Shown here one piece after another: positions 12,194-59,122 of a stretch of DNA of 64,000 nt. This DNA is from Siphonodentalium dalli. Lineage: Eukaryota > Mollusca > Scaphopoda > Gadilida > Siphonodentaliidae. Both the position numbers and the translations under genes were made by a program. Below the pieces are notes generated by a model. It did not search any database. It was given only the letters and a program-made list of their open reading frames with translations, and was not told the origin of the DNA. Each line of letters starts with the position of its first letter. Positions within the stretch are counted from its first letter, which is position 1. Location: positions 243,411,474 to 243,475,473 of the forward strand of contig CP136065.1 of the NCBI GenBank assembly GCA_032622095.1. The letters run 5' to 3'.

Positions 12194-12422
12194 AGACGTT
12201 AAAGCGTTGCAGTTCCTTCTGAGTAGTTGATGGGCTTGTGTTATCAATTGTTTTGCTTGTTTCAAAGCATTCCTGTTCTCAACTTGATATGTGAGATCTT
12301 CAACGAGCCTCAATTCATCTCGGATATCATCCGCTATTGGCTTCACATTCTCTAAACTCTCAACTTGAATTCTGTCTATCCACACATCTTCCTCACCTTC
12401 ATCATGTTCATCTATTGCCTCT
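12185..12422 (-). CDS. Exon E, terminal exon with stop codon
   Basis: This 238-bp exon follows the acceptor ttatttgaatttttacag. The first base completes the Arg codon begun by exon D. The peptide starts [20 protein letters not shown] and continues as a charged, helix-prone segment rich in Glu, Asp, Leu and Gln ([20 protein letters not shown]-like spacing that could form a coiled coil). It ends NALTSGD and TGA at 12187-12185. The stop and the final codons sit at the edge of a 27-bp minisatellite that forms the 3' flank. An open frame extends upstream of the acceptor to a Met at 12481, but the AG, the pyrimidine-rich run and the phase match with exon D favour the splice site used. Confidence 0.62.
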
Positions 12423-24400: not shown

Positions 24401-27400
24401 AACTATGGTATCAAATTTCCCAACATTTTGTTCAACGAATTATGGCCGTATTATCACTTGAGTATTCATGAAATTGGGCCGTATTACCACTTGGTTTTAG
24501 AGTTATCCATCTTCATCTGCAATTTTGACCGAGACCATCCGTTTGAAGACGTGTTTCTGGGCCACAAACAATTGAAATAACAAACTTTAAAAATTGATAG
24601 CTGATTACTCTGAGCTTTGATGGGTAGGTTCCCCGACTCGAATCAAATATTTGTTTTCCCCGAAGCCAAAGAAAAAGTAATTTAGGGGTGTTTAATCGCA
24701 TTGAGTACCTTTAAATGGAAGCACATAGAAAACATGACGTTTAAATGGAAGCACATAGAAAACAGACAAGTTTTAAACTGAAGCACATAGAAATCAGACT
24801 TGTCTTGTTAACCAGTTCATGACGGGAGCTGCACTAGTGACGCATTAAAGATCCTGTGCCAGTGCATTCTCTTATATATGCGAGTCTCCCATAGGGAGCC
24901 TCCCGTATATAATGAAATGCACTGGCTTACAAGGTCAAGGTAAATATTGTTAAGCCAAAGCATTCTCTTATATATGAGTGGGCATCTTATGCGAGACTCG
25001 CATATATAAGAGAATGCACTGGCACAGGGTTTCCGCAAAATTTCATGAAGCTCCAGTCATGGAAGGGTTAATTAAACAAGTTGGCTTTCAAGGTCAAGTT
25101 AAATATTGTTAGGCCAATGCATGCTCTTATAAATGTGAGACTCTCTATGGGAGAATCACGTATATAAGAGAATGCATTGGCACAGGATGTTCGCAAAATT
25201 TCAGGAAGCTCTAGTCATGGAAGGGTTAATGTCTTGATATCTTTAATTAGTGTTCATTTCAGCACTTACTAGTCCTGTCGGATGGTTTATATGATCGATG
25301 GCTGGAGAAATATCGACTGCAAAACATCGGTTATTCTCAACGTCTTCTGATGAATAACTTTCCAAGACACTCATAACTGCGCTAATGACCTCCGACTTGG
25401 GTATGATGTCACCTGGTCCCCACGACAAGCTCGGAAACCTCAGACATTCTCGGATGATCATTTTAGCCGTGCATCTTACTTTCCTCGATGTTTGATATTC
25501 ATCGTCTGCCTGAAATCGAAGACAAGGGCCATAACTCTTGAGATGTATGATTATTGTTTTCAAGCCTTAAATTATTGTACCTGTAATGACGTCCCCTGAG
25601 GGTGAATTTAGTGACCCTATCCCGCATAGTGGGCTAGCATCACCAAATTCACCCTCAGGGACCTCATTCTGCATTACCTCATTTGCTCTGTAGTGTAGTG
25701 ACTTAGCGACAAAAAATTGTCATATTGGAACGGACTGGCCAAAAGTGCCATTTTTTTATATTATGTCAAGTTATGAGTGCTCTTCCAGAAAGTGAACTAG
25801 AAACAGGTTTCTGATCAATATTAACTCTTGTTTCCAGTATAAATCCAAGATGGCCACCAAATTCAATCACTATTTCACCATGACGTTCCAACTGGTATAA
25901 AATTTGAGGCAAATGCCTAATACGGGCGTCATTCCATCCGGCATTGTCATATTTTTATGGGAAACAGACTCAGATTGAAGTTCCCAAATGATGAATATTG
26001 TGATGTACACCCATTGGGAAACTCGAAATGTGTCGTCTGCCAATTTAGGGATATAGAGAAACTAAATTAAAAAAGAAATAGAATCTATGTGAAGAAGTTT
26101 CTATATAAAATTGTTAAGGAATCTTTCCCGAGAAGATGAGGTCTAAGCAGAATGAGGTCATCTGAGGGTGAATTTAGTTATGCTAGACCGATATGAATAA
26201 TAGTATCACTAAATTCACACTCTGGGGACCTCATTCAGCAAATGACAGGCTCACTAAACTCAGGCTTGCTTTGTCACCCTCTGGGACCCTCATTCTGCTG
26301 AGGCCTCACGCAGGTCAGGCACATCCTGAATTCCACTATAGTGGTATACATGTATGACCATTACAGTTTTGTGAATTTGATAAAAGAGGGATAATCCAAC
26401 ATCATATTTCACACAAATTATTCAAAATCAGTGTCACACTAATTTGGTATCAAAAATGTTTTGTCCAGCAGAATGATTAATCATGACGGCACACGATAAG
26501 CAACTCAATTACTAAATTAGCATTCAATTAGCTTAAAGGGATACTCTACTCAAATGTTGTTCTTGGTTTCTATAGTCTCAGAGTCGTAGAATGAGGTAAC
26601 CAGATTTCCATTCTTTGAAAGTCTGTTGAGTACGAAGTAATGACATGGATGGCAGATTAGCTGGAATGCGAAAATACCAATTGCCGTTGTCTAGTAAGTT
26701 TGGACAGTTTTCAAGCAAATATTTCAAATAAATGTTATACGTGTATTATATGCATACTAGCCCCATATACTCATTTAAGTCATTGTATAGTCACTAGTCA
26801 GTGAGTGGCTTGTGTTTGCGCCCCGCCCCATATATCAACATAATTTTTTACACGATCATGTGTGCCACGCTTTGCCCAATCCACTATCTGTGAATTATTT
26901 TTATTACGTCTTGTACACGGAAATTCGTAATTTAATTTATGGATCCAGCCATAAATTAAATTTATATCAAATTAATAACTTTGATTTTAAGATAACCTAT
27001 TAACCTGAACGTTTACATAAGACATCGTCGACTCAAATTACTTAGTTTTATATATATTATTGATATTAGATCGTTGCTATCACCGGGAATCTATTGAAAA
27101 TGGCATACAGTACCCTTTTAAATGTTGTTATGAAGAAGCGATTGAGTTTTCCTGTTATTGTCATTTAGAAAGGCATATATTAGTAATATTATTGAATAAC
27201 AAAGGTGGCGTAAAAGATTGCACAACAAATTTTGTCAGAAGACTGTTTATTCACTGCGATATTGATAAGAGTGAAAATTGATTGTGCACTGGTACGCGCC
27301 ATCTTCTATTCTAGACGCAAGTAAACGAAACATGAATATCTAACGACTATATGAGTGGAATTTAGGATGTGTCTGACCTGTCAACTGCTAAGGGAGACCA

Positions 27401-30400
27401 AGGATCAGTTATTGATATTCACCCATTAGTCACCTCGATTAATATGCATTTTATCTTCTGCAAATTAGGGGATATAGAAACTGAACAGAAGGGAAAAAGT
27501 AACTAAAAACAATGTTAATTTGAGATACCGGTATATATACTTCCCAGAAGATGAGGCCTAAGTAGAATGAGGTTCAAGGGAGAAGTGACCTCTCTCATAC
27601 ACCAGTATATATTAACTTTATTTTCTGATTACTAATGTTATACTTATTATTATAATCAGTTCGTAAATGTGCGATTGCAATGCACAATATATATGTGACC
27701 CGCCATATCAAATCCAGTCGTAAGTCGGGATTTTTTTACCCTGTGCCAATGCATTCTCTTATATATGCGAGTCGACCATAGGTCGCCTCGCATATATAAG
27801 AGAATACATTGGCCTAACAATTTTTATCATTTTTTTAAAATAAATATTTCTTACAATTTTTAGGAAATAAAATAAAAAACATCCATTACCCTGCAGGGAG
27901 CCCCACACATATATAGAAGCATATAGAAGAGTGTTGTCTGCTCATGTTTGTCTGGGGCTCTGTATGGGTGAAATTATAAAATTGTTAAAGAATACAAGAA
28001 AAAATTATTAAAATTGTAAAAAATTGTTAGGCCAATGCATTCTCTTATATATGCGAGGCGACCTACATGTATGGTCGACTCGCATATATAAGAGAATGCA
28101 TTGGCACAGGGTAAAAAAATCCCGACTTACGATTGGATTTGATATGGCGGGTCACATATATACTTATTGGATCATCAGAATCGTGATGACAGGGTGTAAA
28201 TCAAAATCATTATGACTTCTCCTGATAGCAGTCGAACTTCTCCTTAATAATAACATAGGGAAAAGTAACTTCTCCTAATTTGGAACTTCTAGGCTAGTCC
28301 CTGCCCGTTAAACGGGAAATTGACTTTGCCTGACAAACTGTAACCGATTATTCCTAATGACTTGAGCATAATTTGCTAAGACTATAGAACATTTTGCACA
28401 CACGTTAATTCTCTTTACTTTACCATGAATTCACCAAACTTCATATTTTTTCTGGAGGGAGAGCGATATATCTCCCTTATTTCATAGTGGTGGAGGCCCT
28501 ATACATTACCTTCAAATCTACTGAATCTTTAATCTTCCGTTTCCTCGGCCTGCCTCCATATGCACATATTTTACATTTCTTATTCAAGGATATGTAGGCT
28601 ACACCGTCTGGATGGAAGTCCACCGCATACTTGAAATTTCTCCTCAGATCTGTTAAAGGAGAGCACAGAACCTGAGTATCACTCTGTCAGGATGAGTATG
28701 TGATCCAATTTTCAAGTAATTCAATTTAAAAGTTCTCCTCAAATCTGTTAAAGGGGTGTACAGTATTCACAGTGGGTAGGGCTTCACGGTATTTCGTCAT
28801 ATCGCGATACTGTTTTTGACACTGTGTAGTCAGTTTCACTTTATGCAAATAGTCGGTACATCGTAGCCGCCGGTGTGGATATAAATACCGACGATATCAC
28901 TATCAGTGTCAAGTATTTAGCAACCATCGACACCTCTAATGCTGAGACAAAGGCCATGGCTAACGGGTTCGGTTTAGCGTGGCATAAAAATTAATTATTT
29001 CTCACTGCTCCATACGCGTTTGTCAACACACTTCGGACAATCAAGTCGACATGCCTCACTGAATGGGCGGCAATTGATGTTTATACAGGCTGTTCTCAGC
29101 TCAATATTGCTGGAAGGTTTCCTGGTCAAATACAATACAAAATGTTATGGTGTTTGTATAATCTGGAGACACAATGACGCGCGTTCAACAGCGCCACAAA
29201 AGCTTATGCATTAGACGTATCACCTGTGTGGACTTACTTTGGTTTAGAATACGGCGATGATGGCACACCAAAGACGACTCACATTCGATATGCCGATTAT
29301 GCAACAAGAAGGTGGTTGCAAAATCCGGCAACACATCCAACCTTCTAAAGAATAACCATCCTCCAACATTGTCATGTTTCGGCCACAATCTTGGAAACGG
29401 CGCCGTGCTCTCACTGTTGCTCAAAAGGAGTTGAAACTAGACCAGCATTCACTGATTGCCGATTGTCCCACACGATGGGGTACAAAGTATGACATGGTAA
29501 AGCGCATCTCGGAACAGGAGGCAGCTATTCTATTCGCAAAGTTCTCAGTTCCAGCAACAAAATGTCACATTTAGTTCCAACATGGCAAGATAATGACGTA
29601 TTTGAGGCTGTCATTGAAGGACTCAAACCAGTGTCTGATTTTATGGACATATTATCGGCTGAAAACTATGTGACAGTATCTTCCTTAAAGCCAATGATGG
29701 ACCACCTCGACACAGAACTACTTAAGACTGATAACAACAAACACAAACTGACACGTGATGTGAAAAAGCGAATTAAGTCATATATGGATAATAAATATGA
29801 CGACGATGAGACCGATCGACTCATTTGTTTGGCATCTTTCCTTGATCCACGCTACAAAAATCGTTTCTTAAATGAGGAGGACTTAAAGTTTGTCAAATTA
29901 GACATCACTGACGACAAAACAATGCATGTGACCAGTAAACCATCCAAAGAAACATTCGACGACAAATTTATTGGTGACGATATTTAGTCATACCGCGGTA
30001 TCATTTTCAATACCGTAATCGGTATTATAATCCGGATACCGTGAAGCCCTAACAGTGGGAAGATGTTAAAGGGATGTACAGCATTCACAGTGGGTAGATG
30101 TGAGAAATCTGTAAATTGTCATCATCAATAAGAACTTGGGAACAAGCCTTGAAATAGGGTGTCTGTCATTTGCAGAATGAGGTCCCCAGAGGGTAAATTT
30201 AGTGATGCTACCCCGCATAGTGGGCTAGCATCACCAAATTCACCCTCTGGGAACCTCATTCTGCTGAGGTGTAAGCAGAATGAGGTCCCTAGAGGGTGAA
30301 TTTGGTGATGCTAGCCCGCTATGCGGGGTAGCATCACTAAATTCACCCTCTAGGGACCTCATTCTGCAAATGACAGACACCCTATTTCTAGACTTGCTTG

Positions 30401-48400: not shown

Positions 48401-51400
48401 TCGGACTTTGTCAGAGTGTCTGACGAAAACGAAAGTTATCTGTCTAAATGTCCCATTTTCGTGTCGAATGGTGATATAAACCTCATTTGTCAGGTGCATG
48501 GATAAATATGATTATTATATACCATATACAGATTTTAAAACGCTCTTTAATAATATCGTATTTGAGCTGTCATAAACAAACTCTATAATTTCTATTCGAA
48601 ATGGCCCCGTTTTTTTGTTGTTAATTTGTGACTGGATGCCTCGCTCGAAGTACGTTATTTTACTATATAAAACTTCATTGTGTCGCTGAAAGTATGGGAA
48701 ATCAATATATAAGGCATATCTTTTGCCTGTATACGATAAACACCGGGTCATACATTTCAATCCACCAGGTCTGCATCAGAAACGATTTGACGATAACATT
48801 AGCACCAAAGATGTTCCCGAACATGAGACATGGGAATAGAGCGAAATGTTTTTGATGAGGCGTGCACAAATATGTAACAGCAGGCTGAGTTTCGTTACAT
48901 TTGCTTGCGATATATTAGTTAGAAGGGAATTTAGATTGTCAATGCGAGAAACAACTAGTGTCAGTACAGCATGCTTCATGGCTCGTTCACTGAGGTATGA
49001 GCGGACTCGACGAAGACAACTAAGATGGAAATATCCTGACTTTAGTATAGATGACACTGTTTTATCGATAGACATTGTTTCATCGAAATAACCACCAAGG
49101 TTACGAAGTGAGTCGACACATGCATTTATTGTTGTGTCTCCCAACTTCACATTGTACAAATGTACTTTGCGTAGCTCCGTCAAAGAATGTTTTGATCCCA
49201 TGACAATAAATTCTGATTTATTATCATTTAGTTTGAGTCTGTTCATGGACATCCATTCACTAATCTCAAGAAAACAGCATTCTAATTATTACATGCTCTT
49301 TTGTATCCCATGTGGTCTTTACGAGAAAAGTCAACTGTCATCGGCATACATGTGGTAGTTGACTGCATGTTTTTTCATAATATCACCAAGGGGCAAAGTA
49401 TAACATAGAAACAGTAGTGGGCCAAGAATAATACTAATAGCAGACGACTAAATAAAATTCCCGTTGTTTGGCGAGACTTTGAGATCCTGTGTGTCTTTTT
49501 GACAGTTCAAGAGATCATGGGTGTCTTTTTGCCAGAAACAATGCGACAATGACCTATTCAGCTTTATTGGGGGCGCTGGTTAGCCTGGAGTCACACATGC
49601 ACACCTGATTGTCGCGGAAGCGAGTTTGCGATATGATGTCATCATGTACGAGCATATTGACTGCCTAGCAGCGTTATGGTAGAATGTTATTCAACTGAGA
49701 ATGGTATACTTTACAACAGGAAGCATGCACCCGAATTTCTTACTTGACAAACCACGAAAAATGACAATTACGAAAATAATGTAATTTACAGTAGTGTTAT
49801 TTATCGAAGTTCTCGGCGCTGTCAGGAAGACAATATTTTGGCCATGACACCGCCTGGATAAAAGTATACATTTCTATTTAAAAACCACTGCAATTTACAA
49901 TGTAAAATGAATATGTGTGTGTATACTTTTATCTAATAAATCATCATACATTCGGCACATCCACGCACATTCGTACATCGAGTGATAGAACGCATGTTAA
50001 TGTTTGTCCGAATCTCCAGCGCCTCGCTGTGAAATTAATTATTTTTAGAACAGATGGTCAATGCGTACAAATGCTATTTTTGGCAGCCCTCTTCCGGGCC
50101 ACAATTACAACAACTCAGTTTTCAAGACTAAAGTTGCAGAAGATAAAATTCATAATCGAGGCGCCCAATGGGTGAACATCACCAACTTCAACTGGGAAAC
50201 TTCTATCTGATCCTAGGTCTACCATAGCAGTTGAGGGCCTAAGCAGAATGAGGTCCCCAGAGGGTGAATTTAGTGATGCTAGCCCACTATGCGTGGTAGC
50301 GTCACTAAATTCACCCTCTGGGACCTCATTCTGCAAATTACAGACACACTATTTGCAGGCTTGAATTTCACAGACAGTGAATAATACACAGACAAAACTG
50401 AAGATTGGGTACATTGTTTGTCTATAAAGACATTAACCCTTTACCCAACAAACCGGCCAAAAACGGCCAAATAAAGCTGCAACAGCCTAAATTATCTTGG
50501 GTCTGTCTCAATAAAACCATACAAATATGGATATCATTGGAACCGGCTCATTGACCACATTGTGATAGTTACAGTTATGCCCTGTGCCAATGCATTCTCT
50601 TATATATGCGAGTCGACCATAGGTCGCCTCGCATATATAAGAGAATGCATTGGCCTAAAAAAAAACCTTTTTTTAATACTTTTTACCATTTTTTCTTACA
50701 TTCTTTAACAATTTTATAATTTTTAATGTGTTAGGCCAATGCATTCTCTTATATATGCGAGGCGACCTATGGTCGACTCGCATATATAAGAGAATGCATT
50801 GGCACAGGGCCCTTCTGTTGGGTAAAGAGTTAAAGTCATAATACAGAAGTTTAGTTCGATTGTAAGATCATGGTCAAGTCTGTAGTATATATGCAATGGT
50901 GATCGATATATGTGGGATACATGCAAGTCTGTAGTATATATGCAATGGTGATCGATATATGTGGGATACATGCAAGTCTGTAGTATATATGCAATGGTGA
51001 TCGATATATGTGGGATACATGCAAGTCTGTAGTATATATGCAATGGTGATCGATATATGTGGGATACAGTTTAACCCTTTACCCAACAGAAGGGCCCTGT
51101 GCCAATGCATTCTCTTATATAAGCGAGTCGACCATAGGTCGCCTCGCATATATAAGAGAATGCATTGGCTTAACACATTAAAAATTATAAAATTGTTAAA
51201 AAATGTAAGAAAAAATGGTAAAAATTGTTTTAAAAAGATTTTTTTTAGGCCAATGCATTCTCTTATATATGCGAGGCGACCCATGGTCGACTCGCATATA
51301 TAAGAGAATGCATTGGCACAGGGCATAACTGTAACTATCACAATGTGGTCAAGGAGCCGGTTCCAATGATATCCATATTTGTATGGTTCTATTGAGACAG

Positions 51401-54400
51401 ACCGAAGAGATATTTTAGGCTGTTGAAGCTTTTGGTTTTGGCCGGTTTGTTGGGTAAAGGGTTAAATCTAGATGCAGTGAAGAACCCAGGGATTTTTTGG
51501 TGACACCAAATTTACTTTTTCCAAATATTTTGCCAAATGAAAATACTTTTTGCCAAATTATTTTAGAAATTGCCAAGTGCTATCACTGATACATGTAGTA
51601 TCAGTTTCTGCAACACTCAGTCTTATGTTTCGGCAATCGCTGTTTGAACAACTTATTAATATTAATAAACCCGTCACACATCAATACTAATGCTATCAAA
51701 TTAACTGCATCTTGATACAGGTGTTAACTGTCCCTAAGCCTAATAAAACACTGCTAATAAAATTGTAAGTGATTCCTCTTTTCAACTTTCTTGAAGAATT
51801 AAAAAGTGACTTGCCAAATGAAAATATGTTTTGCCAAATGTGAATTAATTTTGCCATTGGCAAATTTGGCAAGTGGCAACGCGAACCCTGTGGTGGGGGG
51901 TCCGGGGGTTCCCCCACAGAAAAAATGCAGTATTTAGAATTTTACTGAGAGGTCAATTTGATCAAGTTTCTCAAGAGTAACTTTGGTAATTTTGATAGAT
52001 GTACCGGGGATTGGAAATGATAGATGTACTAGTAGATGTATGGGATTGGAAATGCTTATAAGTTATTGTCAGATATCTTTTGGTTCAATGGATTATGATT
52101 ATCCTGCTTGAAATGAGACTTACCGTTATCACTCTGATTCATATAATAGACTATTTTCTAAAATTCAATTTAGAAACGCATACATAATAAACTAGTAGTG
52201 CAGAAACAATGTCTATTAAGTTATTAATTACACGTAGTACTAATCTCCATGTTAGTTAGTAATTACACGTAGTACTAATCTCCATGTTAGTTAGTAATTA
52301 CATGTAGTACTAATCTCCATGTTAGTTATTAATTACACGTAATACTAATCTCCATGTTAGTTAGTAATTACACGTAGTACTAATCTCCATGTTAGTTAGT
52401 AATTACACGTAGTACTAATCTCCATGTTAGTTATTAATTACACGTAGTACTAATCTCCATGTTAGTTATTAATTTGGTATTATGAGATCCCACCTGATAG
52501 CCAGGTTAATTTTATCAAATTGTCATTGTTCCTGTACTGTATTGTGTAATTTCACTTGAATTTGATTGAAATAGTGAAGTCTGAAGGCTGAATGATAACA
52601 AACCTAAACTCAAACTATTTGAAGTGTTCACAGATGAAAGCTAAAGCTAAACATACATTACAGTATAATTCCACTTGTTAAACTTAAATCTTTTTGTAAA
52701 CTTAAATGTCTTATGTCAATATTTATAAATGTATTTGTATCTTGTTATGATATGAATTGTGACCTGGAGTTTGGGTGCCCATTTTAAACAGTTACAAGTA
52801 TGAAAACCAGCCTGTATATATCCCTGAGATGCCACATATTTACTATCAGGTGCCTAATAACAGTGTCGGCAGGATTATTAATTTTGGAGAAAATTCCCAA
52901 TGATCGCTATTATTTGGCATTAAAACATAGAGCGAAATTTCCATGATTATTATCAATTTCAGCATAAATCACTATTATTAGGCCATCACAATTATTAGGC
53001 CATCACAATTATTAGGCCATCACTATTATTAGGCCATCACAATTATTAGGCCATCACAATTATTAGGCACCTGAGAGTAGAACATGCCTAAGAGTAAGAT
53101 GTTACACTTTTAAGGGAACTCTTCATATACTTTCAGCAAGCCTTGAAATAGCGTGCCTGTCATTTGCAGAATGAGGTCCCCAGAGGGTGAATTTAGTGAT
53201 GCTACCCCACAGAGCGGGTTAGCATCACCAAATTCACCCTCTGGGAACCTCATTCTGCTGAGTTGTAAGCAGAATGGGGTCCCCAGAGGGTGAATTTGGT
53301 GATGCTAGCCCGCTATGTGGGGTAGCATCACTAAATTTACCCTCTGGGGACCTCATTCTGCAAATGACAGACACGCTGTCTCAAGGCTTGACTTTCAGTC
53401 TGTTTGAGATTATATCCCGATATGACCAGGTCTATGCTCAGTTTGGAGGAATCGGTATTGCTATTGGATTTAATAATGGATGTGATGTGAAATGAGGATG
53501 ATGAGATGTTAATAGCGTTAACCCTTTGGAGAGTATCTGTAACGTCATATACATGACGCCATGAGTAAATTTAACGTCAACGTCATAGCAATAATTATTA
53601 ACAAGTTCGGGTCAAAAGGGTCCAATAATTCGTTTTAATTTATGTTAATTTTTTGTTAACGTGTGTTATCATAATCGATTGCACTTATACATTTGGGATA
53701 TTATACTAATGAAAATAACACCAATACAAATCATTTATTATAGATATCAGATGATTTATTGAAGTTATGTCTACATAAAATAACACTTCCTGAAACGACA
53801 TATATGTCGTTCTACTCCTCAACCGATAGATGACATATATGACGTTCTACTCGCCAAAGGGTTAAAGACATATTATGTACTTGTTCGGGTGCGTTAAACT
53901 GATAAGTTAGTATTCAGGCGCTATGCAAACTGGGGGAATATTATAAAGTTATTATACAATGTTGTGTACAGTATGTGTTTTTCTTGTACGAGTCCAGGTT
54001 GTGGTGAAAAGTCATATTGGACGAGACACGCCAGTGTCGAGTCAAATATGACTTTTCACCACAACCTGGACGAGTATAAGAAAAACTCATACTGTACACA
54101 ACATTGTATAATGACATTTTTATTATCCATCTGTATGTTTATCCAAATTTTGGGAATAAAACTTTTGTGGTTATTTTTGGTATTTGTCGCCACTTAATTC
54201 TCGATAAAAGCCTGTATTTTGATCACCAGAAAGCATGATTTGGAAAAGTAAACACGGAAGTAAGAAAAAAATTCAACGCGGAAGTGAAACATCTGCTAAA
54301 ATCCACCAGTGTTGCGCGCGCATCACAATTTCACCGATTCATTTCGCAATAGAGTTAATTCGTGACGTCACGGAGTCCCAATAAAAAGTGATATTGTAGT

Positions 54401-55651
54401 CGGGAGTCCAATATGACTTTCGGGAGTCCAATATGACTTTTTCCAGGACTATCACGTGGCGGCTTTTGCCCAATCGGAAATGGTGTTAGTTAAGGGATGG
54501 ATAATAATTTTTTTTACTAACATTGATGAAAATATGAAGCAAATCGACCATACCACTCCACGAAAAACATCGTCTAAAATACGTTGAATTGTAAATATTT
54601 ACTACTCTATTCGGGACGCATATATAGGCGATAAACTAACAAAACTATTTTGCCATCGAGAGTCACTATATTGAACAAATATATAGGAATGACAGTGTGT
54701 GTTGTCAATTTATATAATAATTTTTTTTAAATTACCACTCTGAACAAGATTATTCTCCATTTCGATTTGATCACCCCACCGGGGTGTTTCACATCACTTT
54801 AAGACTCTACCCATGAAGATGAAGCAATATGTCTGATATTTTCAGAATGAAGTCCACAGAGGGTGAATTTAGTTATGCTACCCTGCATAGTGAGCATATA
54901 AACCACTCACCCTCTGGGGACCTCATTCTGCTTAGGCTTCATCTTCTGGGAAGTACCTATAGTCTCAAATTAACATTGTTTTTAGTTACATTTTCGCTTC
55001 TGTTCAGTTTTTATATCCCCTAATTTGAAGAAGATGAAATGCATAATCAAGTTGACTAATGGGTGAACATCACCAACTTCAATCTGATCCTAGGTCCCCC
55101 ATAGCAGTTGAAGCCTAAGCAGAATGAGAATCCCAGAGGGTGATATTTGGTGATGCTAGCCCACTGTGGGGGATGGCATCACTAAATTCACCCTCTGGGG
55201 ACCTCATTCTGCAAATGTACGACACACTATATTCAGGCTTGGTAACAGGTACAGCAATGCCCTAAATAATCGATTCCTTAACCATAGCAGAATTATGGGT
55301 AACTTTTCAAGATTTAGTCGGAAATATGGCTTGTTGCCATCCATCAGAAAGCTCTTAGTGAGAGCTTTCCGATGAATGGAAACAAGCCATATTTCCGACT
55401 AAATCCTGAAAAGTTACCCATAATTCTGCTGTGGTTAACGAGTCGATTATTTAGGGCATTACTGTACATGAATGCTTTTTTGTCATACCTGTTTGTCCAA
55501 AGTTCTTCAATCTCACAGATTCTGCTTTGTACTCCACTAAGGTCTCTTGCTCGTGTTTTCTCATCAAAGCTTCAACTCTCTCCTCTGATTCAACCAGCCC
55601 ATTGTATTCACTCCAAGCGACATTGAACAATGACGACCAGGTGCCAGACAT
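12185..55651 (-). CDS. Multi-exon gene model (3' part): ALS2CR8/CARF-like protein with two tandem A-B-C modules
   Basis: This model joins eight minus-strand exons: A1 55489-55651, B1 47450-47589, C1 42818-43084, A2 34115-34277, B2 28510-28649, C2 25270-25509, D 19899-20023 and E 12185-12422. Every junction has AG/GT borders and compatible phases (A 0 to 1, B 1 to 0, C 0 to 0, D 0 to 2, E 2 to stop). The total of 1476 nt is exactly 492 codons including TGA. Each A-B-C module has an acidic 'ESEE' helix region, a basic Cys-containing stretch with a Gly-Gly, and a 'CPAK..IRE..RFP' Cys-Pro-Ala block followed by paired His. This layout recalls the ALS2CR8/CARF family of putative DNA-binding proteins, recognised from memory without a profile search. 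The start exon and promoter lie beyond 55.65 kb or outside the window. Joining C1 to A2 is inference; two tandem genes are the alternative. Confidence 0.6.
12504..13617. mobile_element. Nonautonomous hAT-like element with nested SINE
   Basis: Ends TAGTGTTGAAACGATTAG (left) and CTAATCGTTTCAACACTA (right), followed by sub-terminal GTCGACT-rich sequence on both sides. The 8 bp outside are CGATAGCC and CATTGGCC, which match at five positions, so the target duplication is only partly preserved. The interior carries a complete SINE. A sequence at about 32415-32455 resembles the joined flanks without the element (GGGAAACCACC..ACCCAGTTGTTAAAA), i.e. a possible empty relative. Confidence 0.6.
12756..13060 (-). 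mobile_element. tRNA-derived SINE, 305 bp
   Basis: Reading the minus strand, the head GGGGCCTCGGTGGCTCAATC contains a Pol III A box (TGGCTCAATCGG, 13039-13050), and GGTTCAAATCC (12980-12990) is a B box. The spacing is longer than in a working tRNA gene because the head has insertions. The tail ends in repeats of ATCA. A 13-bp direct duplication, GGTTCGATGAATG, flanks it (12743-12755 and 13061-13073), as expected for LINE-driven integration. The SINE family cannot be named without a database. Confidence 0.82.
13737..14445. repeat. 28-bp minisatellite, about 25 copies
   Basis: Unit CATTCAGTAGTAAGTTAGTA plus ACAGCATA. Copies are almost identical; the few variants (an ACAAG copy, two CACATT copies, one CCGTAG copy) are near the ends or isolated, suggesting recent homogenisation or expansion. 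Confidence 0.9.
14447..15451. other. No gene recognised
   Basis: AT-rich sequence. The frame at 15231-15443 has no identifiable motif. Confidence 0.35.
15456..15705. mobile_element. TTAA-flanked double-hairpin MITE, second shell type, 250 bp
   Basis: TTAA at 15452-15455 and 15706-15709. Ends are CCCTTCCATGACTGGAG and CTCCAATCATGAAAGGG. The interior has two hairpins of the CCAATGCATTCTCTTATATA type, with loop sequences different from the 11504 copy (CTCCGAGAGGGAG). Confidence 0.72.
15966..16118. repeat. 51-bp tandem repeat, 3 copies
   Basis: ACAGCATAAAAATAAACTTG..CCAGAAACAGTGACCTATCAG is repeated three times, open in one frame on each strand. Three copies alone do not indicate a protein. Confidence 0.8.
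16537..17632. mobile_element. Possible hAT-like nonautonomous element
   Basis: The left end CAGGGCTGGCGGTCTAGAAA and right end (reverse complement) CAGGCTGGCGGGCTGCCCGC share CAGG(G)CTGGCGG. Both are followed by short GC-rich palindromes (GGAGGGCTATTAATAGCCCT near the left). I could not find a clean 8-bp duplication, so the boundaries are tentative. Confidence 0.35.
17695..18640. repeat. About 160-bp tandem repeat, roughly 5 copies, with GACGGACG tail
   Basis: Units share AACTCATAAACAAAA.ATTATTG, 'tttgagtta.tgc.cttacgac', AAACTAAGGGGCATAACTC and 'cggacgaaactggttttcgaactcg'. Spacings between copies are about 150-160 bp. The array ends GGAAGCATGGACGGACGTAC. Confidence 0.8.
18640..19477. other. 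No gene recognised; one short direct repeat
   Basis: A 46-bp direct duplication (GATTGTGGAGTCAGA.CATGT..) occurs at about 18725 and 18768. Otherwise this is AT-rich intron. Confidence 0.4.
19478..19859. mobile_element. MITE with 27-bp terminal inverted repeats and internal GCCGAACGGCAAGTACAC repeats
   Basis: Ends ACTACCCCGCTGGACAAAAC and its complement (one mismatch in 27 bp) enclose about six imperfect copies of GCCGAACGGCAAGTACAC, each with a small palindrome. The target duplication is unclear. The element lies 39 bp from exon D. Confidence 0.7.
19899..20023 (-). CDS. Exon D, acidic linker exon
   Basis: The 125-bp exon has acceptor ctattattttacag and donor TGTCG|GTAAGT, phase 0 to 2. The peptide is [20 protein letters not shown] then [21 protein letters not shown], and its last two bases (CG) combine with the A opening exon E to give Arg. 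The composition is strongly acidic and probably disordered. The E-x-D-V-W-I motif recurs in exon E, suggesting an internal duplication. A MITE (19478-19859) ends 39 bp into the downstream intron. No A-, B- or C-type exon was seen between C2 and D. Confidence 0.6.
20133..20158. repeat. Homopolymer C run, 26 bp
   Basis: Twenty-six consecutive C. Length may be affected by sequencing or assembly. Confidence 0.9.
20416..20689. mobile_element. TA-flanked palindromic MITE (20454-20646) bracketed by a 38-bp direct repeat
   Basis: Arms run from CAGTAATGCTCTAA to TTAGAGCATTACTG with TA on both sides, the pattern of Tc1/mariner-type MITEs. Most of each arm pairs (CAGAATTATGG..AACTTTTCAGGATTTAGTCG..). 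Outside, an identical 38-bp sequence (TTGAGAAAATAAAAATAAGT...) occurs at 20416-20453 and 20652-20689, much longer than a TA duplication. Confidence 0.75.
20896..21450. repeat. 37-bp minisatellite, about 15 copies
   Basis: Unit GAGTTCTGTAAGGGTGATGT plus GTAAAACCCTGCCACGT. Copies vary at a few positions (CTGTCACG, ACGCTGCC). An A-rich run follows at 21486-21499. Confidence 0.88.
21500..22010. repeat. About 155-bp tandem repeat, 3 copies
   Basis: 'gaacatccataccaaatttcatt', 'ggtggagata' and 'aacaaagatgaa.a.ctctagaa' recur with spacing of roughly 150-165 bp. Confidence 0.7.
22010..22980. other. No gene recognised (intron C2-D)
   Basis: The minus-strand frame at 22467-22754 was examined as a possible missing exon, because it is in the right strand and intron. 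It has no ALS2CR8-like motif and no convincing acceptor/donor pair. Confidence 0.35.
22980..23440. repeat. Diverged relative of the 10190-11150 repeat
   Basis: Two blocks, GCCATTTTGGTAACCATCTT and GCCATTTTGGCAGCCATCTT, occur about 310 bp apart, with similar AT-rich context to the 10.5-11 kb region. Confidence 0.45.
23625..23800. mobile_element. Partial copy of the double-hairpin family
   Basis: Right half only: GATAGCATCACTAAATTCAC, CCTCTGGGGACCTCATTCTG and CAAATGACAGGCACACT. It is preceded by an imperfect inverted pair GGTTCCCAATGGGAGTAC..ATTTGGGAAC. It ends in CAGGCTTGG. Confidence 0.6.
23905..24278. repeat. 32-bp minisatellite, left part
   Basis: About 12 copies of AGAAAATAGATGAGTTTTAA plus ATGGAAGCACGT. 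The array is interrupted by a TTAA element and resumes at 24711-24800. Confidence 0.85.
24279..24710. mobile_element. TTAA-flanked element, AGGTACTCAA ends, 432 bp
   Basis: TTAA at 24275-24278 and 24711-24714; ends AGGTACTCAACCCGAT and ATCGCATTGAGTACCT. Relatives lie at 35721-36189 and 43609-44050. All share 'gagggtccccatatcatcaa', 'caacaacaa' and 'gctttgatgggt.ggttcctcgactcgaatcaaatattt'. It inserted into the TTTTAAATGG part of the 32-bp minisatellite unit. Confidence 0.78.
24711..24800. repeat. 32-bp minisatellite, right part
   Basis: Three further copies (ATGGAAGCACATAGAAAACA..) after the inserted element. They carry the variant CACATAG instead of CACGTAG. Confidence 0.8.
24812..25067. 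mobile_element. TTAA-flanked double-hairpin MITE, second shell type, 256 bp
   Basis: TTAA at 24808-24811 and 25068-25071; ends CCAGTTCATGACGGGAGC and GCTCCAGTCATGGAAGGG. Two hairpins with CCAGTGCATTCTCTTATATA-type stems and CTCCCATAGGGAG-type loops. Confidence 0.72.
25081..25225. mobile_element. Right half of a second copy of the same MITE
   Basis: Repeats the spacer (AAGGTCAAG.TAAATATTGTTA), one hairpin and the right end CTAGTCATGGAAGGG before TTAA. It is probably a partial tandem duplication of the 24812-25067 element. It ends 45 bp from exon C2. Confidence 0.7.
25270..25509 (-). CDS. Exon C2
   Basis: The 240-bp, 80-codon exon is phase 0 at both ends, with acceptor tgtcttcgatttcag and donor CTA|GTAAGTG. 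The peptide runs [20 protein letters not shown], then [20 protein letters not shown], and ends with a Cys-containing acidic stretch and DHINHPTGL. Compared with C1 the Cys-Pro-Ala block is Cys-Thr-Ala, while the IRE..RFP block and final H..H..G are kept. The tract between them ([18 protein letters not shown]) parallels C1 ([18 protein letters not shown]). A TTAA-type MITE copy ends at 25225, 45 bp inside the downstream intron. Confidence 0.72.
25585..25675. mobile_element. Single-hairpin copy of the double-hairpin family
   Basis: One hairpin: CCTGAGGGTGAATTTAGTGA ... TCACCAAATTCACCCTCAGG. The outer CAAGCC arms are missing. Confidence 0.6.
25965..26320. mobile_element. Larger relative of the double-hairpin family
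   Basis: Left part CCCAAATGATGAATATTGTG..., middle 'agatgaggtctaagcagaatgaggt', and right a hairpin with GGGTGAATTTAGTTATGCTA and its partner. A similar middle part occurs at 27400-27590 and 54940-55125, suggesting a longer founder element. Confidence 0.5.
26320..27690. other. No gene recognised; fragment of the same family at 27400-27590
   Basis: The plus-strand frames at 26812-27003 and 27060-27281 have no recognisable motif. The fragment at 27400-27590 carries 'cttcccagaagatgaggcctaag.agaatgagg'. Confidence 0.35.
27695..28155. mobile_element. MITE with GTGACCCGCCATATC ends and the shared double-hairpin core, 461 bp
   Basis: Ends GTGACCCGCCATATCAAATC and its complement extend about 45 bp to TCGGGATTTTTTTACCCTGT. 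Inside lie the same CCAATGCATTCTCTTATATA hairpins found in the TTAA elements. The flanking 4 bp are ATAT on both sides, ambiguous because the flank is TA-rich. Confidence 0.75.
28510..28649 (-). CDS. Exon B2
   Basis: The 140-bp exon, the same length as B1, has acceptor ctctcctttaacag and donor AAG|GTAATG. With the base carried over from A2 it encodes D followed by [20 protein letters not shown], then [20 protein letters not shown] and DSVDLK. It is more basic than B1 (PRKRKIK), which suits a nucleic-acid contact, but that is inference. The hAT relic (28777-30051) begins 120 bp upstream of this exon in the A2-B2 intron. Confidence 0.7.
28777..30051 (+). mobile_element. hAT transposon relic, 1275 bp, perfect 8-bp target duplication
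   Basis: Terminal inverted repeats TAGGGCTTCACGGTAT and ATACCGTGAAGCCCTA are exact over 16 bp. The 8 bp outside each end are ACAGTGGG (28769-28776 and 30052-30059). Both the 8-bp duplication and the TAGGG start are hAT hallmarks. The interior holds a broken BED zinc finger and transposase (see 29218-29987), so the copy is internally deleted and not autonomous. Confidence 0.92.
29218..29987 (+). pseudogene. Broken hAT (ZBED-like) transposase
   Basis: The frame starts [15 protein letters not shown], the usual beginning of a BED zinc finger. It shifts, and in the next frame gives [10 protein letters not shown] and [10 protein letters not shown], carrying the C-x2-C and first His of the finger. 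A third frame (29374-29574) reads [16 protein letters not shown], the hAT 'PTRW' block. The last (29562-29987) reads [19 protein letters not shown], then [18 protein letters not shown], the 'LDPR.K' block. The central catalytic region and the C-terminal hAT dimerisation domain are absent, so no active enzyme can be made. ORF edges are shifted by at least three frame changes. Confidence 0.85.
30143..30396. mobile_element. 254-bp double-hairpin hAT-like MITE, 8-bp duplication CTTGGGAA
   Basis: Ends CAAGCCTTGAAATAGGG and CCCTATTTCTAGACTTG. CTTGGGAA flanks both sides (30135-30142, 30397-30404). Each half is itself a ~90-bp hairpin (AGAATGAGGTCCCCAGAGGG ... CCTCATTCT), so the element is a palindrome made of two palindromes. 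Confidence 0.88.
30578..30761. mobile_element. MITE-like element with TGCCTAATAA ends
   Basis: Ends CAGCTGCCTAATAATAGTGT and GATTATTAGGCACCG. Sub-terminal ATTATTAGGCCATCAC units occur on the right. The partner copy is 52847-53073. Confidence 0.55.
30955..31965 (-). repeat. Inverted, longer copy of the 3690-4400 repeat
   Basis: About four to five units with 'gttggaaat.tccaa', 'ccaactgatgaccatttc' and 'gccacggggagggacc' variants. The left end is GACGTGGCTAGATGGTCTCC. A C-run (CACCCCCCCCCC) lies at about 31013. Confidence 0.6.
31980..32063. mobile_element. Truncated half of a double-hairpin MITE (second shell)
   Basis: One hairpin (GGCATTCTCTTATATATGCG, loop CTCCCTATGGGAG) and the piece CACAGAATCTTTAATGCTGC that occurs in the 15456 element. 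Outer ends are missing. It abuts the previous repeat. Confidence 0.65.
32462..32660 (+). mobile_element. Possible Helitron 5' end
   Basis: TCTATATTAATAAAACTC, then TTTTGTTTGTTTGTCCGC and AAACGGCTGGACCATCGG, match the usual layout of animal Helitron 5' regions (TC start, TTTGTTTGTCC, ACGGCTGGACC). A block at about 32595-32655 (AACAGGAGGCACATTTCCC) recurs at 33090-33140. The CTRR hairpin end was not located. Confidence 0.45.
32959..33135 (+). CDS. Short ORF, 58 codons, unknown; may include a repeat-derived tail
   Basis: A plus-strand frame follows an AG (ccatttcag) by about 20 bp and starts [20 protein letters not shown], then [20 protein letters not shown]. The last 18 codons fall in a block shared with 32595-32655, so the true coding part, if any, is the first 40 codons. 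FSGSG..L resembles the SHP box that binds p97/VCP, but five residues are little evidence. No other exon of this putative gene was seen. It could equally be a chance frame. Confidence 0.2.
   Translation: MDNLGFTPFSGSGILLEAIGIEGSSLDVSVSREEDFTPVEISKHQQEGHFPISLCIVV
33835..33955. repeat. About 38-bp tandem repeat, 3-4 copies, like a MITE end
   Basis: CAGCTCCCATCATGAAAGGGTAATGTT-type units (written here as consensus pieces CAGCTCCCATCATG and AAAGGGTAATGTT). The CTCC..TCATGAAAGGG part equals the right end of the second-shell MITEs (e.g. 15690-15705). Confidence 0.6.
34115..34277 (-). CDS. Exon A2, second A-type exon
   Basis: The exon is 163 bp, phase 0 to 1, with acceptor tattttatccag and donor ACATACAG|GTATG. 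The peptide begins [18 protein letters not shown], followed by [20 protein letters not shown] and ending IRKNFGHT. No Met lies at the start, so this is an internal exon; it would have to be spliced from an upstream exon ending in phase 0, and exon C1 does. Its frame is open throughout. A TA-flanked palindromic MITE (34329-34522) ends 50 bp upstream of the acceptor, the mirror of the arrangement at exon A1. Confidence 0.7.
34329..34522. mobile_element. TA-flanked palindromic MITE, 194 bp (Tc1/mariner-like)
   Basis: TA on both sides; ends CAGTAATGCCCTAAATAATC and its near-complement. Arms are about 95 bp with a very short loop (CTCTCAGTGAGAG). Same family as 20454-20646 and 55252-55464. Confidence 0.8.
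34997..35436. mobile_element. MITE with GTGACCCGCC ends and shared core, 440 bp
   Basis: Ends as at 27695-28155. Both sides are followed by ATTT (34993-34996, 35437-35440), which supports a 4-bp target duplication. The right inner hairpin has lost its left stem. The left contains an extra 'catcaaatccagt' duplication. Confidence 0.78.
35549..36606. mobile_element. Nonautonomous hAT element with nested TTAA element
   Basis: Ends TAGGGGTGCCACGATTAAT and ATCGTGGCACCTCTA (reverse complement TAGAGGTGCCACGAT). The flanking 8 bp are ATGAAACC and ATGAAAGT, six identical. Sub-terminal regions are rich in ATCGATTAT-like motifs. The TTAA element 35721-36189 sits inside. Confidence 0.75.
35721..36189. 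mobile_element. TTAA-flanked AGGTACTCAACC element, 469 bp, nested
   Basis: TTAA at 35717-35720 and 36190-36193; ends AGGTACTCAACCCG and CGGGTTGAGTACCT. The interior has 'ggtttgatgggt.ggttcctcgactcgaat' in both orientations. Confidence 0.8.
36955..37038. mobile_element. 84-bp near-perfect palindrome
   Basis: ACAATAGCTGGTGATTATTT pairs with AAGATAATCACCAGCTATTG; the arms are about 38 bp with a short AT loop. Probably a tiny MITE. Confidence 0.7.
37105..37422 (-). CDS. 105-codon ORF of unknown function
   Basis: The minus-strand frame encodes [20 protein letters not shown], then the segment [40 protein letters not shown], and ends [18 protein letters not shown] before TAG. Mixed third positions and the absence of simple repeats make it look more like protein than the neighbouring frames. 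I do not recognise a family. A stop lies four codons upstream of the Met, and a weak acceptor (tgactggtag) lies just before it. It sits on the same strand as the CARF-like gene, between C1 and A2, but its phase does not fit after C1 without a further exon. It could be a separate small gene, a retroposed copy or a transposon fragment. Confidence 0.35.
   Translation of the reverse strand: MYKLGWIKPVSFYKTVYSDTRHIQVYHVSRTLFKRHDTPEVGITTRALKRELHLSDNLATIPIPLFFRLCTVLIEKDLYIYKVMKIYEPVIVINVPDTANSTSKP
37440..38700. other. No gene recognised (intron C1-A2)
   Basis: The plus-strand frame at 38306-38596 shows no motif. No repeat partner was found in the window. Confidence 0.35.
38701..39480. repeat. About 380-bp tandem duplication, 2 copies
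   Basis: GAACATGACCATCACCGTGC (38701) and GAACATAACCATCAGCATGT (39089) start two units that stay similar to the end ('ttcgatca.ttggg.tat.tgcttagcaacc', 'taccagggagtga'); a third start is at 39460. Confidence 0.75.
39560..39890. repeat. Array of palindromic units (TTGCGCTTAAGCGCAA)
   Basis: About ten palindromes of the form CTTATTGCGCTTAAGCGCAA occur in ~330 bp, some decayed, alternating with GAATATTC- or GGAATTTCC-type links. Any strand can fold into many alternative hairpins. Confidence 0.85.
40165..40715 (+). repeat. Three-copy repeat with GACGGACGGA tail and GCGGGGGATA end
   Basis: Units of about 165 bp share CCGGACCTGG.TTGCGAACTC, 'ataccaaaaatc', 'tccgttgacatttgt' and 'acaaagtccaataactc'. 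The end is GGACGGACGGCTAGACAGAC, then a small hairpin CCCCCGCAAATT..GCGGGGG. Confidence 0.75.
40725..40875. repeat. About 24-bp tandem repeat ('CACACCCCTACATTATAAAT')
   Basis: Four clear and two degenerate copies. It appears to extend directly from the end of the preceding repeat. Confidence 0.75.
41169..41324. mobile_element. 156-bp palindromic MITE
   Basis: CATCAACGTCGTTTTTCGGT and its complement bound arms of about 63 bp with two mismatches, around an asymmetric GC-richer loop (TTCCGCGAAGCGGA, itself a hairpin). The target duplication is not clear. Confidence 0.8.
41325..42465. other. No gene recognised (intron C1-A2)
   Basis: Contains no coding frame. Two 'CCTACTTTTATTCCGC' copies lie at about 42356 and 42409. 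Confidence 0.35.
42474..42727. mobile_element. 254-bp double-hairpin hAT-like MITE, 8-bp duplication TCTGTGAA
   Basis: Ends CAAGCCTTGAAATAGTG and CACTATTTCAAGGCTTG. TCTGTGAA flanks at 42466-42473 and 42728-42735. It has the same 254-bp length and architecture as the copies at 30143, 47635 and 53137. It ends 91 bp from exon C1. Confidence 0.9.
42818..43084 (-). CDS. Exon C1 of the CARF-like module (Cys-Pro-Ala block)
   Basis: The 267-bp, 89-codon exon is phase 0 at both ends. The acceptor is ccctcatttccag and the donor CGA|GTAAGT is near-ideal. The peptide runs [20 protein letters not shown], then [19 protein letters not shown], then an Asp/Ser-rich linker ([15 protein letters not shown]), and ends at paired His residues, [10 protein letters not shown]. 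The KK.GCPA...IRE..RFP stretch followed by H..H..G is the feature most like the ALS2CR8/CARF family, where it is thought to form part of a DNA-binding domain. It is homologous to exon C2, which is nine codons shorter at the 5' side. An open frame continues upstream of the acceptor to a Met at 43129, but C2 supports the acceptor used here. Confidence 0.72.
43310..43558. mobile_element. TTAA-flanked double-hairpin MITE, second shell, 249 bp
   Basis: TTAA at 43306-43309 and 43559-43562. Ends CTCTTTCATGACTGGAGC and GCTCCTGTCATGAAAGGA. Two decayed hairpins inside. Confidence 0.7.
43609..44050. mobile_element. TTAA-flanked AGGTACTCAATCC element, 442 bp
   Basis: TTAA at 43605-43608. The right end GATTGAGTACC runs into TTAA with one T lost. 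It carries 'gctttgatgggtgggttcctcgactcg' as its relatives do. Confidence 0.72.
44100..44440 (+). repeat. Bivalve-type repeat with GACGGACGGA tail and CCCCC hairpin
   Basis: Starts 'aaaaggtcagctgacctcagtgtccccc', ends GTGACGGACGGACGGATCCC, then AGTCCCCCAAAAATAAATTT and CGGGGGAC. Same plan as 17695-18640 and 40165-40715. Confidence 0.65.
44748..46074. mobile_element. TA-flanked DNA transposon, 1327 bp, with degenerate sub-terminal repeats
   Basis: Ends TTCTCAAAATAAGTGTCCCT and (complement) TTCTCAAAATAAGTGCCCTT, with TA on both sides. The first ~200 bp at each end contain several degenerate copies of CAACGCGG / CGTTGAAGTT-type motifs. No transposase was recognised in the middle. Tc1/mariner-like by target only. 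Confidence 0.65.
46431..46457. repeat. Homopolymer G run, 27 bp
   Basis: Twenty-seven consecutive G, complementary in type to the C run at 20133. Confidence 0.9.
46555..46810. repeat. Two-copy direct repeat, about 125 bp
   Basis: ATGGTGCGTCCCCC and TAATGAGATAATCCTA recur about 122 bp apart, followed by ACGTGCGC. Confidence 0.7.
46985..47440. other. No gene recognised (intron B1-C1)
   Basis: Contains TTGGGAAT-rich sequence at 47030-47090, resembling 46120-46200 (both have CCCATTTTGGGAATGGG-like stretches), probably parts of one element. Otherwise AT-rich. Confidence 0.35.
47450..47589 (-). CDS. Exon B1 of the CARF-like module
   Basis: The 140-bp exon has a good acceptor (tttgtttacag at its 5' side) and donor AAG|GTATGA. 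Two leading bases complete the split codon from exon A, and the exon then encodes [36 protein letters not shown] and a Lys/Asp-rich end, DTGDLK. It aligns with exon B2 over its whole length (LR.N.KY.V.F...V....LN...K...GG.P.K...KD..DLK) at just under half identity. In ALS2CR8-type proteins this region carries a short hydrophobic strand, a conserved Cys and a basic tail, consistent with what is seen. An hAT-like 254-bp palindrome begins 45 bp upstream of the acceptor, at 47635. Confidence 0.7.
47635..47888. mobile_element. 254-bp double-hairpin hAT-like MITE
   Basis: Ends CAAGCCTTGAAATAGTG and CACTATTTCAAGGCTTG. Length and hairpins equal the other full copies. The flanks TCAAGGCA / ATTATGCA do not form a clear 8-bp duplication. 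Confidence 0.85.
47900..48510. other. No gene recognised (intron A1-B1)
   Basis: AT-rich. No frame with motif, no inverted ends. Confidence 0.35.
48776..49445 (-). pseudogene. LINE reverse-transcriptase fragment (YADD to C-terminal part of RT)
   Basis: On the minus strand, the segment at 49440-49337 reads [20 protein letters not shown] then HMYADDS, with the catalytic YADD at 49348-49337. A stop or frame change follows it. The next frame (49252-48776) reads [20 protein letters not shown], then [14 protein letters not shown], then [16 protein letters not shown] and ICARLI. These are the usual post-catalytic blocks of Jockey/CR1/L2-type LINEs (LK.N..K.E, RNLG..FD, R.YL). The copy is truncated at both ends and broken. 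Confidence 0.85.
49450..50130. other. No gene recognised
   Basis: AT-rich sequence with one short direct pair ('tgtgtctttttg.cag') at about 49488 and 49518. Confidence 0.35.
50140..50363. mobile_element. Half copy of the double-hairpin family plus extra left part
   Basis: One hairpin (AGAATGAGGTCCCCAGAGGG .. CCTCATTCTGCAAATTACAG) and the right end CACACTATTTGCAGGCTTG. The left part (CAACTGGGAAACTTC..) is shared with 55030-55120. Confidence 0.65.
50437..50829 (+). mobile_element. TTAA-flanked double-hairpin MITE, full length, 393 bp
   Basis: TTAA at 50433-50436 and 50830-50833; ends CCCTTTACCCAACAAACCGG and CCTTCTGTTGGGTAAAGAG. It contains a ~140-bp left arm (CTGTCTCAATAAAACCATAC..) followed by two hairpins of the CCAATGCATTCTCTTATATA type around AT-rich spacer. 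Confidence 0.82.
50870..51067. repeat. 49-bp tandem repeat, 4 copies
   Basis: Unit AGTCTGTAGTATATATGCAA plus TGGTGATCGATATATGTGGG and ATACATGCA. Copies are virtually identical. The array fills the gap between two oppositely oriented TTAA elements. Confidence 0.9.
51075..51461 (-). mobile_element. TTAA-flanked double-hairpin MITE, inverted second copy, 387 bp
   Basis: TTAA at 51071-51074 and 51462-51465. It is the reverse complement of the 50437-50829 copy with small differences, giving a large inverted repeat. Confidence 0.82.
51466..52200. other. No gene recognised
   Basis: Four 'TTGCCAAATG/TTGCCAAAT' blocks at 51535-51560 and 51810-51860 suggest an old local repeat; a GGGGGGTCCGGGGGTTCCCC stretch lies at about 51894. 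Confidence 0.4.
52210..52472. repeat. 35-bp minisatellite, about 8 copies
   Basis: Unit AGTTAGTAATTACACGTAGT plus ACTAATCTCCATGTT. Two alternating variants (TTATTAAT / TTAGTAAT). Confidence 0.88.
52475..52845. other. No gene recognised
   Basis: AT-rich intron with no repeat partner found. Confidence 0.35.
52847..53073. mobile_element. MITE-like element with CAGGTGCCTAATAA ends
   Basis: Ends CAGGTGCCTAATAACAGTGT and TTATTAGGCACCTG. Six tandem ATTATTAGGCCATCAC units fill the right third. Partner of 30578-30761. Confidence 0.65.
53137..53390. mobile_element. 254-bp double-hairpin hAT-like MITE, 8-bp duplication ACTTTCAG
   Basis: Ends CAAGCCTTGAAATAGCG and ...TCTCAAGGCTTG. ACTTTCAG flanks both sides (53129-53136, 53391-53398). 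Two hairpins as in the other full copies. Confidence 0.9.
53522..53861. mobile_element. TTAA-flanked element with CCCTTTGGCGAGTA ends, 340 bp
   Basis: TTAA at 53518-53521 and 53862-53865. Ends CCCTTTGGAGAGTATCTG and TTCTACTCGCCAAAGGG. Both are followed inward by ACGTCATATA.ATGACG palindromes. A further TTAA family. Confidence 0.75.
53866..54805 (+). repeat. Second copy of the 7080-7650 dispersed repeat, interrupted
   Basis: Shares the blocks listed at 7080-7650. The palindrome 53951-54112 and about 400 bp of extra sequence lie inside it. Two 'GGAGTCCAATATGACTTT' copies occur at about 54405-54440. Confidence 0.6.
53951..54112. mobile_element. 162-bp palindromic MITE
   Basis: ATTATACAATGTTGTGTACA pairs with TGTACACAACATTGTATAAT; the arms are about 70 bp and nearly perfect. 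The loop contains GACACGCCAGTGTC, a smaller hairpin. Confidence 0.82.
54828..55241. mobile_element. Longer relative of the double-hairpin family
   Basis: Two separated hairpins (54845-54935 and 55120-55212) are joined by a ~170-bp middle containing AAATTAACATTGTTTTTAGT and GAAGATGAAATGCATAATC. The right end GACACACTATATTCAGGCTTG is a relative of the CAAGCC end. Confidence 0.6.
55252..55464. mobile_element. TA-flanked palindromic MITE, 213 bp (Tc1/mariner-like)
   Basis: TA on both sides; ends CAGCAATGCCCTAAATAATC and TTTAGGGCATTACTG. Arms are about 100 bp. It ends 24 bp from the exon A1 donor. Confidence 0.82.
55489..55651 (-). CDS. Exon A1, first A-type exon of the CARF-like module
   Basis: The exon has 54 codons plus one base. 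It starts phase 0 after an AG at 55653-55652 and ends at ...AAACAG|GTATG (donor GT at 55488-55487). The peptide begins [17 protein letters not shown], contains GLVESEE and ends KNFGQT. It matches exon A2 at about 55% of positions and has exactly the same length (163 bp), so the intron positions are conserved. The ATG falls on the first codon, but it sits directly behind a usable acceptor and A2 has a non-Met residue there, so it need not be the start codon. A second AG 14 bases further upstream (cttccag) would extend the exon in a different phase. A Tc1/mariner-like palindrome ends 24 bp inside the downstream intron. Confidence 0.7.
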
Positions 55652-58730: not shown

Positions 58731-59122
58731 CCCTTTACCCAACAAACTGGCCAAAAACGCCCAAATAAAGCTTCAACAGCCGAAAATATCTTCGGTCTGT
58801 CTCAATAAAACCATACAAATATGGATATCATTGGAACCGGCTCATTGACCACATTGTGATGGTTACAGTTATGCCCTGTGCCAATGCATTCTCTTATATA
58901 TGCGAGTCGACCATAGGTCGCCTCGAATATATAAGAGAATGCATTGGCCTAAAAAAACACTTTAACACTTTTTACCATTTTTTCTTACATTCTTTAACAA
59001 TTTTTTTATTTTTAATGTGTTAAGCCAATGCATTCTCTTATATATGCGAGGCGACCTACCTATGGTCGACTCGCATATATAAGAGAATGCATTGGCACAG
59101 GGCCCTTCTGTTGGGTAAAGGG
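58731..59122. mobile_element. TTAA-flanked double-hairpin MITE, full length, 392 bp
   Basis: TTAA at 58727-58730 and 59123-59126; ends CCCTTTACCCAACAAACTGG and CCTTCTGTTGGGTAAAGGG. Very similar to 50437-50829 throughout. Confidence 0.82.

Follow-up and report, generated by a model that had tools for sequence, protein, structure and literature searches.

The window, a stretch of 64,000 nucleotides in the Siphonodentalium dalli genome (C5:243411474-243475473 of 2.23 Gb in nine contigs), carries what its sequence indicates to be a real, intact-looking gene of transposase ancestry in which one coding module occurs twice. The explanation we favour, and consider fairly probable, is that this is a single minus-strand gene derived from a MULE-like transposase, with the core lost and the N-terminal, DNA-binding-like module doubled. 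From an ancestral MULE-like transposase gene, the locus would have lost the remainder of the ALS2CR8 domain together with the RNase-H-like core, the SWIM finger, the protease-like stretch and the PHD finger, and would now hold the N-terminal module with its C...C...HxxH pattern in two copies, the last exon of the first copy (C1) being spliced to the first exon of the second (A2).

The model runs from 55651 to 12185 on the minus strand in the order A1, B1, C1, A2, B2, C2, E, T. Splicing by script joined the eight exons in frame into 491 amino acids followed by TGA; all introns are GT-AG and all phases fit. Module 1 opens with A1 (55489-55651, 163 nt, phase 0 to 1), counted from the start ATG, upstream of which a CCAG acceptor lies at 11 nt. 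It continues with B1 (47450-47589, 140 nt, phase 1 to 0), bearing the first conserved cysteine in the motif KKCVHG, and C1 (42818-43084, 267 nt, phase 0 to 0), bearing the second conserved cysteine and an HxxH. Module 2 consists of A2 (34115-34277, 163 nt, phase 0 to 1), which has ACA at the position of the A1 ATG, B2 (28510-28649, 140 nt, phase 1 to 0), which retains the first cysteine, and C2 (25270-25509, 240 nt, phase 0 to 0), which retains the second cysteine and the HxxH; all six exons lie on the minus strand. These two A-B-C sets had been proposed in the initial annotation, and their lengths, order, strand and phases proved to be as it gave them, with GT-AG at the sites used and phase 0 at both ends of the module.

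The coding unit does not stop at 25270, where that annotation had ended it: two further minus-strand exons extend it to 12185. Exon E (19899-20023, 125 nt, phase 0 to 2) encodes an acidic stretch resembling the first part of T, of which it is a repeat, and the terminal exon T (12185-12422), entered in phase 2 and closed by TGA, is homologous to the stretch that follows the SWIM finger in a paralogous locus, L015. T was recognised through its likeness to the L015 open reading frame (60% over 43 residues, E value 1e-10), and exon E as a repeat of the T start, with an E value of 0.98 on its own. Compared with T, exon E scored 55, second to T itself among the 5915 reading-frame segments of at least 15 residues on which our profiles were run; these came from the window and seven flanking pieces of 10 kb, four downstream and three upstream of the gene. 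The next segment scored 38, and one of 2000 shuffles of exon E reached 55. A match to exon E in the animal's own genome (E value 0.007) was left out of the count because the query held the letters of exon E itself. Inclusion of exon E is not forced by phase, since C2 could also be spliced to T at a later AG that, by eye, is in phase 0.

Homology between the corresponding module exons, likewise claimed beforehand, is far above chance (tblastn E values of 1e-15 for A1-A2, 1e-11 for B1-B2 and 1e-22 for C1-C2), and the two modules are identical at 88 of 181 aligned residues. Their differences by codon position number 61, 53 and 86. The dN/dS between modules is about 0.3-0.5 (0.39/1.22 by NG86, 0.38/0.78 by LWL85, 0.39/1.41 by YN00), a rough ratio because dS is near saturation. 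By pair, NG86 gave 0.36/1.22 for A1-A2, 0.41/1.00 for B1-B2 and 0.29/1.05 for T against L015, and left dS undefined for A1 against L015; YN00 gave no value for four of the five short pairs. In neutral simulations starting from module 1, the observed protein identity was reached in 0 of 1000 runs and a stop was gained in 999. These comparisons show signs of constraint on the predicted eight-exon gene. They also bear on another reading, in which the exons are unexpressed remnants of decayed MULE-like elements that stayed open by chance. Decay could explain the loss of the core domains, the window is full of repeats, and 15 of 44 ALS2CR8 matches in the genome have stops inside them, some perhaps because the match runs into an intron. 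We nevertheless regard such remnants as quite improbable, since all eight exons are open and their splice sites intact although the modules differ at about half of their residues, and since the simulations and dN/dS argue against neutral decay.

The predicted homology to ALS2CR8 was borne out by profile search with Pfam PF15299. Module 1 matched with an E value of 1.4e-12 and 48.5 bits, above the Pfam cut-off of 28.9 bits, and its B and C exons joined without intron residues gave 48.3 bits; module 2 matched with 2.3e-6 and 28.2 bits, which alone is 0.7 bits short. The C1 open reading frame by itself gave 1.6e-9. Each module covers positions ~20-140 of the 235 in the profile, the complete domain is absent, and the D exon, which corresponds to profile positions 155-235, was not found in the window or flanks. 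The matching phases, an A2 that lacks a start codon and a lone terminal exon thus support the notion of a gene with serial ALS2CR8-like modules, but in each of them only about half of the Pfam domain is represented. The genome was searched with C1, A1 and B1 at an E value of 0.01, which returned two, four and two matches, respectively, counting those in the window. Elsewhere A matched twice, once at each of two loci, and the further A-B-C sets that the initial annotation had envisaged did not turn up in these searches.

Across the genome the Pfam ALS2CR8 profile had at least 44 matches (150 of 162 candidates scored), and in this genome-wide search only C1 matched within the window at an E value of 0.001. 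PF21056, the MULE/ZSWIM RNase-H profile, had 68 matches (104 of 104 candidates scored). Grouped by position, the ALS2CR8 matches make 36 loci, of which 17 have a same-strand PF21056 match within 12 kb downstream; the window belongs to the remaining 19, which have none within that distance. At L003 a single open frame matches ALS2CR8, MULE (PF10551) and the ZSWIM1-3 RNase-H-like profile (PF21056), and L015 carries SWIM and PHD fingers together with a stretch that reads as protease-like by eye and has no Pfam match. Because of these neighbouring PF21056 matches, the joint frame of L003 and the SWIM and PHD fingers of L015, we conclude from the profile matches that this genome has a family of MULE-type transposases headed by ALS2CR8, a context that the initial annotation had not recognised. 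By the same kind of evidence, the window gene is of shared ancestry with MULE-containing genes of this genome: exons A, B and T match L015 and L017/L019, which hold late-MULE, SWIM and PHD parts, and exon C matches L004, L021, L022 and others.

L015 (contig C2, 11340000-11349000) is the closest paralogue by exons A and T, its A exon being 61% identical to A1. It has A and the first part of B and continues with late MULE, SWIM, T and PHD; the C and D parts were not found in it, for which reason it may be internally deleted. L017 and L019 (C6:62804000-62821000) together make up a paralogue with one module, in which the parts follow each other as A, B, C, D, MULE, SWIM, T, protease-like and PHD. 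Its frame is broken in places, and an open reading frame of 803 amino acids inside it looks reverse transcriptase-like by eye. A weak D-exon match at L010 (60% over 15 residues) was rejected, as there is no reading frame there. L024-L025 (C5:142484001-142502000) and L026-L027 (C7:188870001-188888000) are 98-99% identical over ~12.5 kb in four pieces; on this likeness, the pair, which holds an ALS2CR8-MULE gene, is a recent copy. The C5-C7 comparison established no terminal repeats, and the likeness reaches the left edge of the compared C5 sequence.

The transposase core that characterises these relatives was not detected around the window gene. Run on the window and 70 kb of flanks, the D, MULE, MULE C-terminal, SWIM, protease-like and PHD profiles gave best E values of 0.22, 0.28, 0.96, 0.53, 1.4 and 0.032, respectively, the last lying in a flank; we take these scores to be chance. 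The RNase-H-like catalytic domain (PF10551/PF21056), which the paralogues have, was likewise not found in the window and 70-kb flanks. The same profiles recovered control copies that had been left out of them: D in L017 (3e-5) and L023 (2.6e-10), MULE C-terminal in L022 (1.5e-11), and SWIM, protease-like and PHD in L020 (8.8e-7, 2e-4 and 4.8e-13). A SWIM candidate in L021 scored weakly (0.036), and for the core MULE profile there was no withheld copy to serve as control. B and C profiles built without window sequence placed B1 (0.0041) and B2 (0.019), and C1 (1.3e-9) and C2 (2.7e-5), as the top two of their respective lists, and the T profile matched T with 5e-19. At the tested sensitivity, these searches show no detectable core domains.

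The start codons, phases and tail of the predicted exons favour one gene. Alternatively, there could be two neighbouring genes with one A-B-C head each, not spliced together, that arose as tandem duplicates or as related elements landing next to each other; in that case a terminal exon of the first gene and a first exon of the second would have escaped recognition. In line with this, C1 and A2 are 8.5 kb apart, and A1 is slightly closer to L015 on contig C2 (33 of 54 residues) than to A2 (29 of 54), because of which two adjacent elements may have given rise to the modules instead of a tandem duplication. In exon B, on the other hand, the copy nearer to L015 is that of module 2, with B2 at 67% of 24 residues and B1 at 46% of 26, so the doubling may have had either history. 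The start of module 2 speaks for its being part of a longer gene. An ATG stands at the same place in A1 and in the A exons of L015 and L017, by eye 11, 12 and 18 nt past the acceptor, so that the spacing in A1 differs in frame from the other two; in L017 the stretch from acceptor to ATG contains an in-frame TAA, as would be expected if it is untranslated. A2 lacks the ATG that these three exons have, its ACA stands directly behind the acceptor, and the intron holds a TGA in the same frame 12 nt upstream. Neither A2 nor B2 contains a methionine, and there is none in module 2 before C2. Module 2 therefore requires a coding exon further upstream, a role for which the phase at the end of C1 is suitable.

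The tail points the same way: the searches turned up a single full tail exon, and this lies downstream of C2. T was the only match to its profile below an E value of 0.8 in the window and 70-kb flanks (next best 0.85), and neither this profile nor direct comparison with T detected T-like sequence between C1 and A2. We accordingly hold two separate genes to be unlikely, and infer that a single gene is transcribed and that C1 is spliced to A2. Within one gene, the modules might still be used as alternatives: exon E begins in phase 0, the phase in which C1 as well as C2 ends, so C1 also fits E, and skipping module 2 would keep the frame and yield a single-module isoform. The missing ATG of A2 fits regular inclusion after C1, and we give this use of the modules very little credence.

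In a single gene of this kind, both modules have kept the C...C...HxxH pattern. The first cysteine, in exon B, and the second, in exon C, are each present in all six aligned rows that reach them, both modules included, and the HxxH near the end of C is present in five of six, L023 having HxH. MULE transposases often carry zinc fingers of the WRKY-GCM1 type, and the pattern could bind zinc in a similar way. This reading is put forward as a suggestion because the profile tests against the WRKY-GCM1 superfamily gave no significant match: FAR1 (E value 1.7) and FLYWCH (3.9), each matched by one of seven members, fell behind an unrelated Nucleoporin2 match (0.0037). A MULE survey has both FLYWCH and FAR1 in its table of groups (PMC6446971). 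Profile search of PDB sequences found no relative, only a chance match (0.48), and the model of exon C alone, from a two-row alignment, was not used for a structure search because its mean pLDDT of 53.6 was too low. By analogy, we infer that both modules bind DNA. The nearest experimental support is the DNA binding of CaRF (PMC2877716). As zinc-stabilised DNA-binding units, the two modules might together recognise two DNA half-sites or one longer site without cutting, and the protein could act as a regulator or as a repressor of related elements.

Regulatory use of a MULE-derived DNA-binding protein has a parallel in plants. FHY3/FAR1 are MULE-derived plant transcription factors that keep the MULE and SWIM regions and one N-terminal finger; by analogy the window gene may have entered a similar use, but here the core is gone and the head doubled. 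In the plant WRKY family, group I proteins have two zinc-type DNA-binding domains in series, a likeness of arrangement. Among MULE transposases with zinc fingers, the paralogues in the same genome join ALS2CR8 with PF10551, PF21056, SWIM and PHD, whereas the window gene yielded no match to the latter four. The MULE survey lists FLYWCH, FAR1, SWIM, CCHC, C2H2 and PHD among others, and ALS2CR8 does not occur in its main text (PMC6446971).

CaRF (ALS2CR8), the vertebrate calcium-response transcription factor, has PF15299, named for ALS2CR8, in common with the window gene. According to the available part of PMC2877716, CaRF binds DNA directly and sequence-specifically through a domain encoded by coding exons 6-7, which resembles no other known family, and CaRF is the sole such gene in each species looked at, without relatives. 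Unlike that single gene, the homologous region here occurs twice in one gene and at many transposase-linked loci. These observations allow a tentative proposal, which we hold at somewhat less than even weight: the orphan DNA-binding domain of CaRF would be the module found at the N terminus in a lineage of animal MULE transposases, and the window gene a domesticated member that discarded the transposase and doubled the module into a bipartite DNA-binding protein, a mode of site recognition undescribed for CaRF. In the literature searched, mostly open-access and including the accessible part of PMC10898136, we saw neither a doubling of ALS2CR8 modules nor a link between ALS2CR8 and MULE described, and nothing connecting CaRF with Mutator transposases or ZSWIM with domesticated Mutator-like elements; ALS2CR8 is merely listed as LINE1-silenced in cancer in PMC5454887, as far as accessible. 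With PF15299 at the head of dozens of loci, roughly half of which have a MULE-type core close by, the CaRF domain acquires a testable origin. If this is true, a gene that keeps the module alone, in two diverged copies, would illustrate a way for a transposase to turn into a protein that binds two sites, and the two copies offer natural sequence variation for mapping the domain.

The window also contains mobile and repetitive sequence. When eight of the longer open reading frames from ~44 kb of it were compared with Pfam, only the C1 frame, a hAT-like match and chance-level matches were returned. The hAT-like RNase-H match (PF14372, E value 1.2e-6) lies in a 164-amino-acid open frame on the plus strand (29493-29984), in the A2-B2 intron. 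Near-palindromic repeats of ~80 nt, probably miniature inverted-repeat elements, occur for example at 24854-25188, 27741-28112, 50582-51324 and 58876-59103, with 15 copies of the family at 60% identity or more between 20 and 64 kb. Minisatellite arrays with units of 37, 32, 35 and ~164 nt lie at 20809-21561, 23842-24343, 52184-52509 and 61185-62623, respectively.
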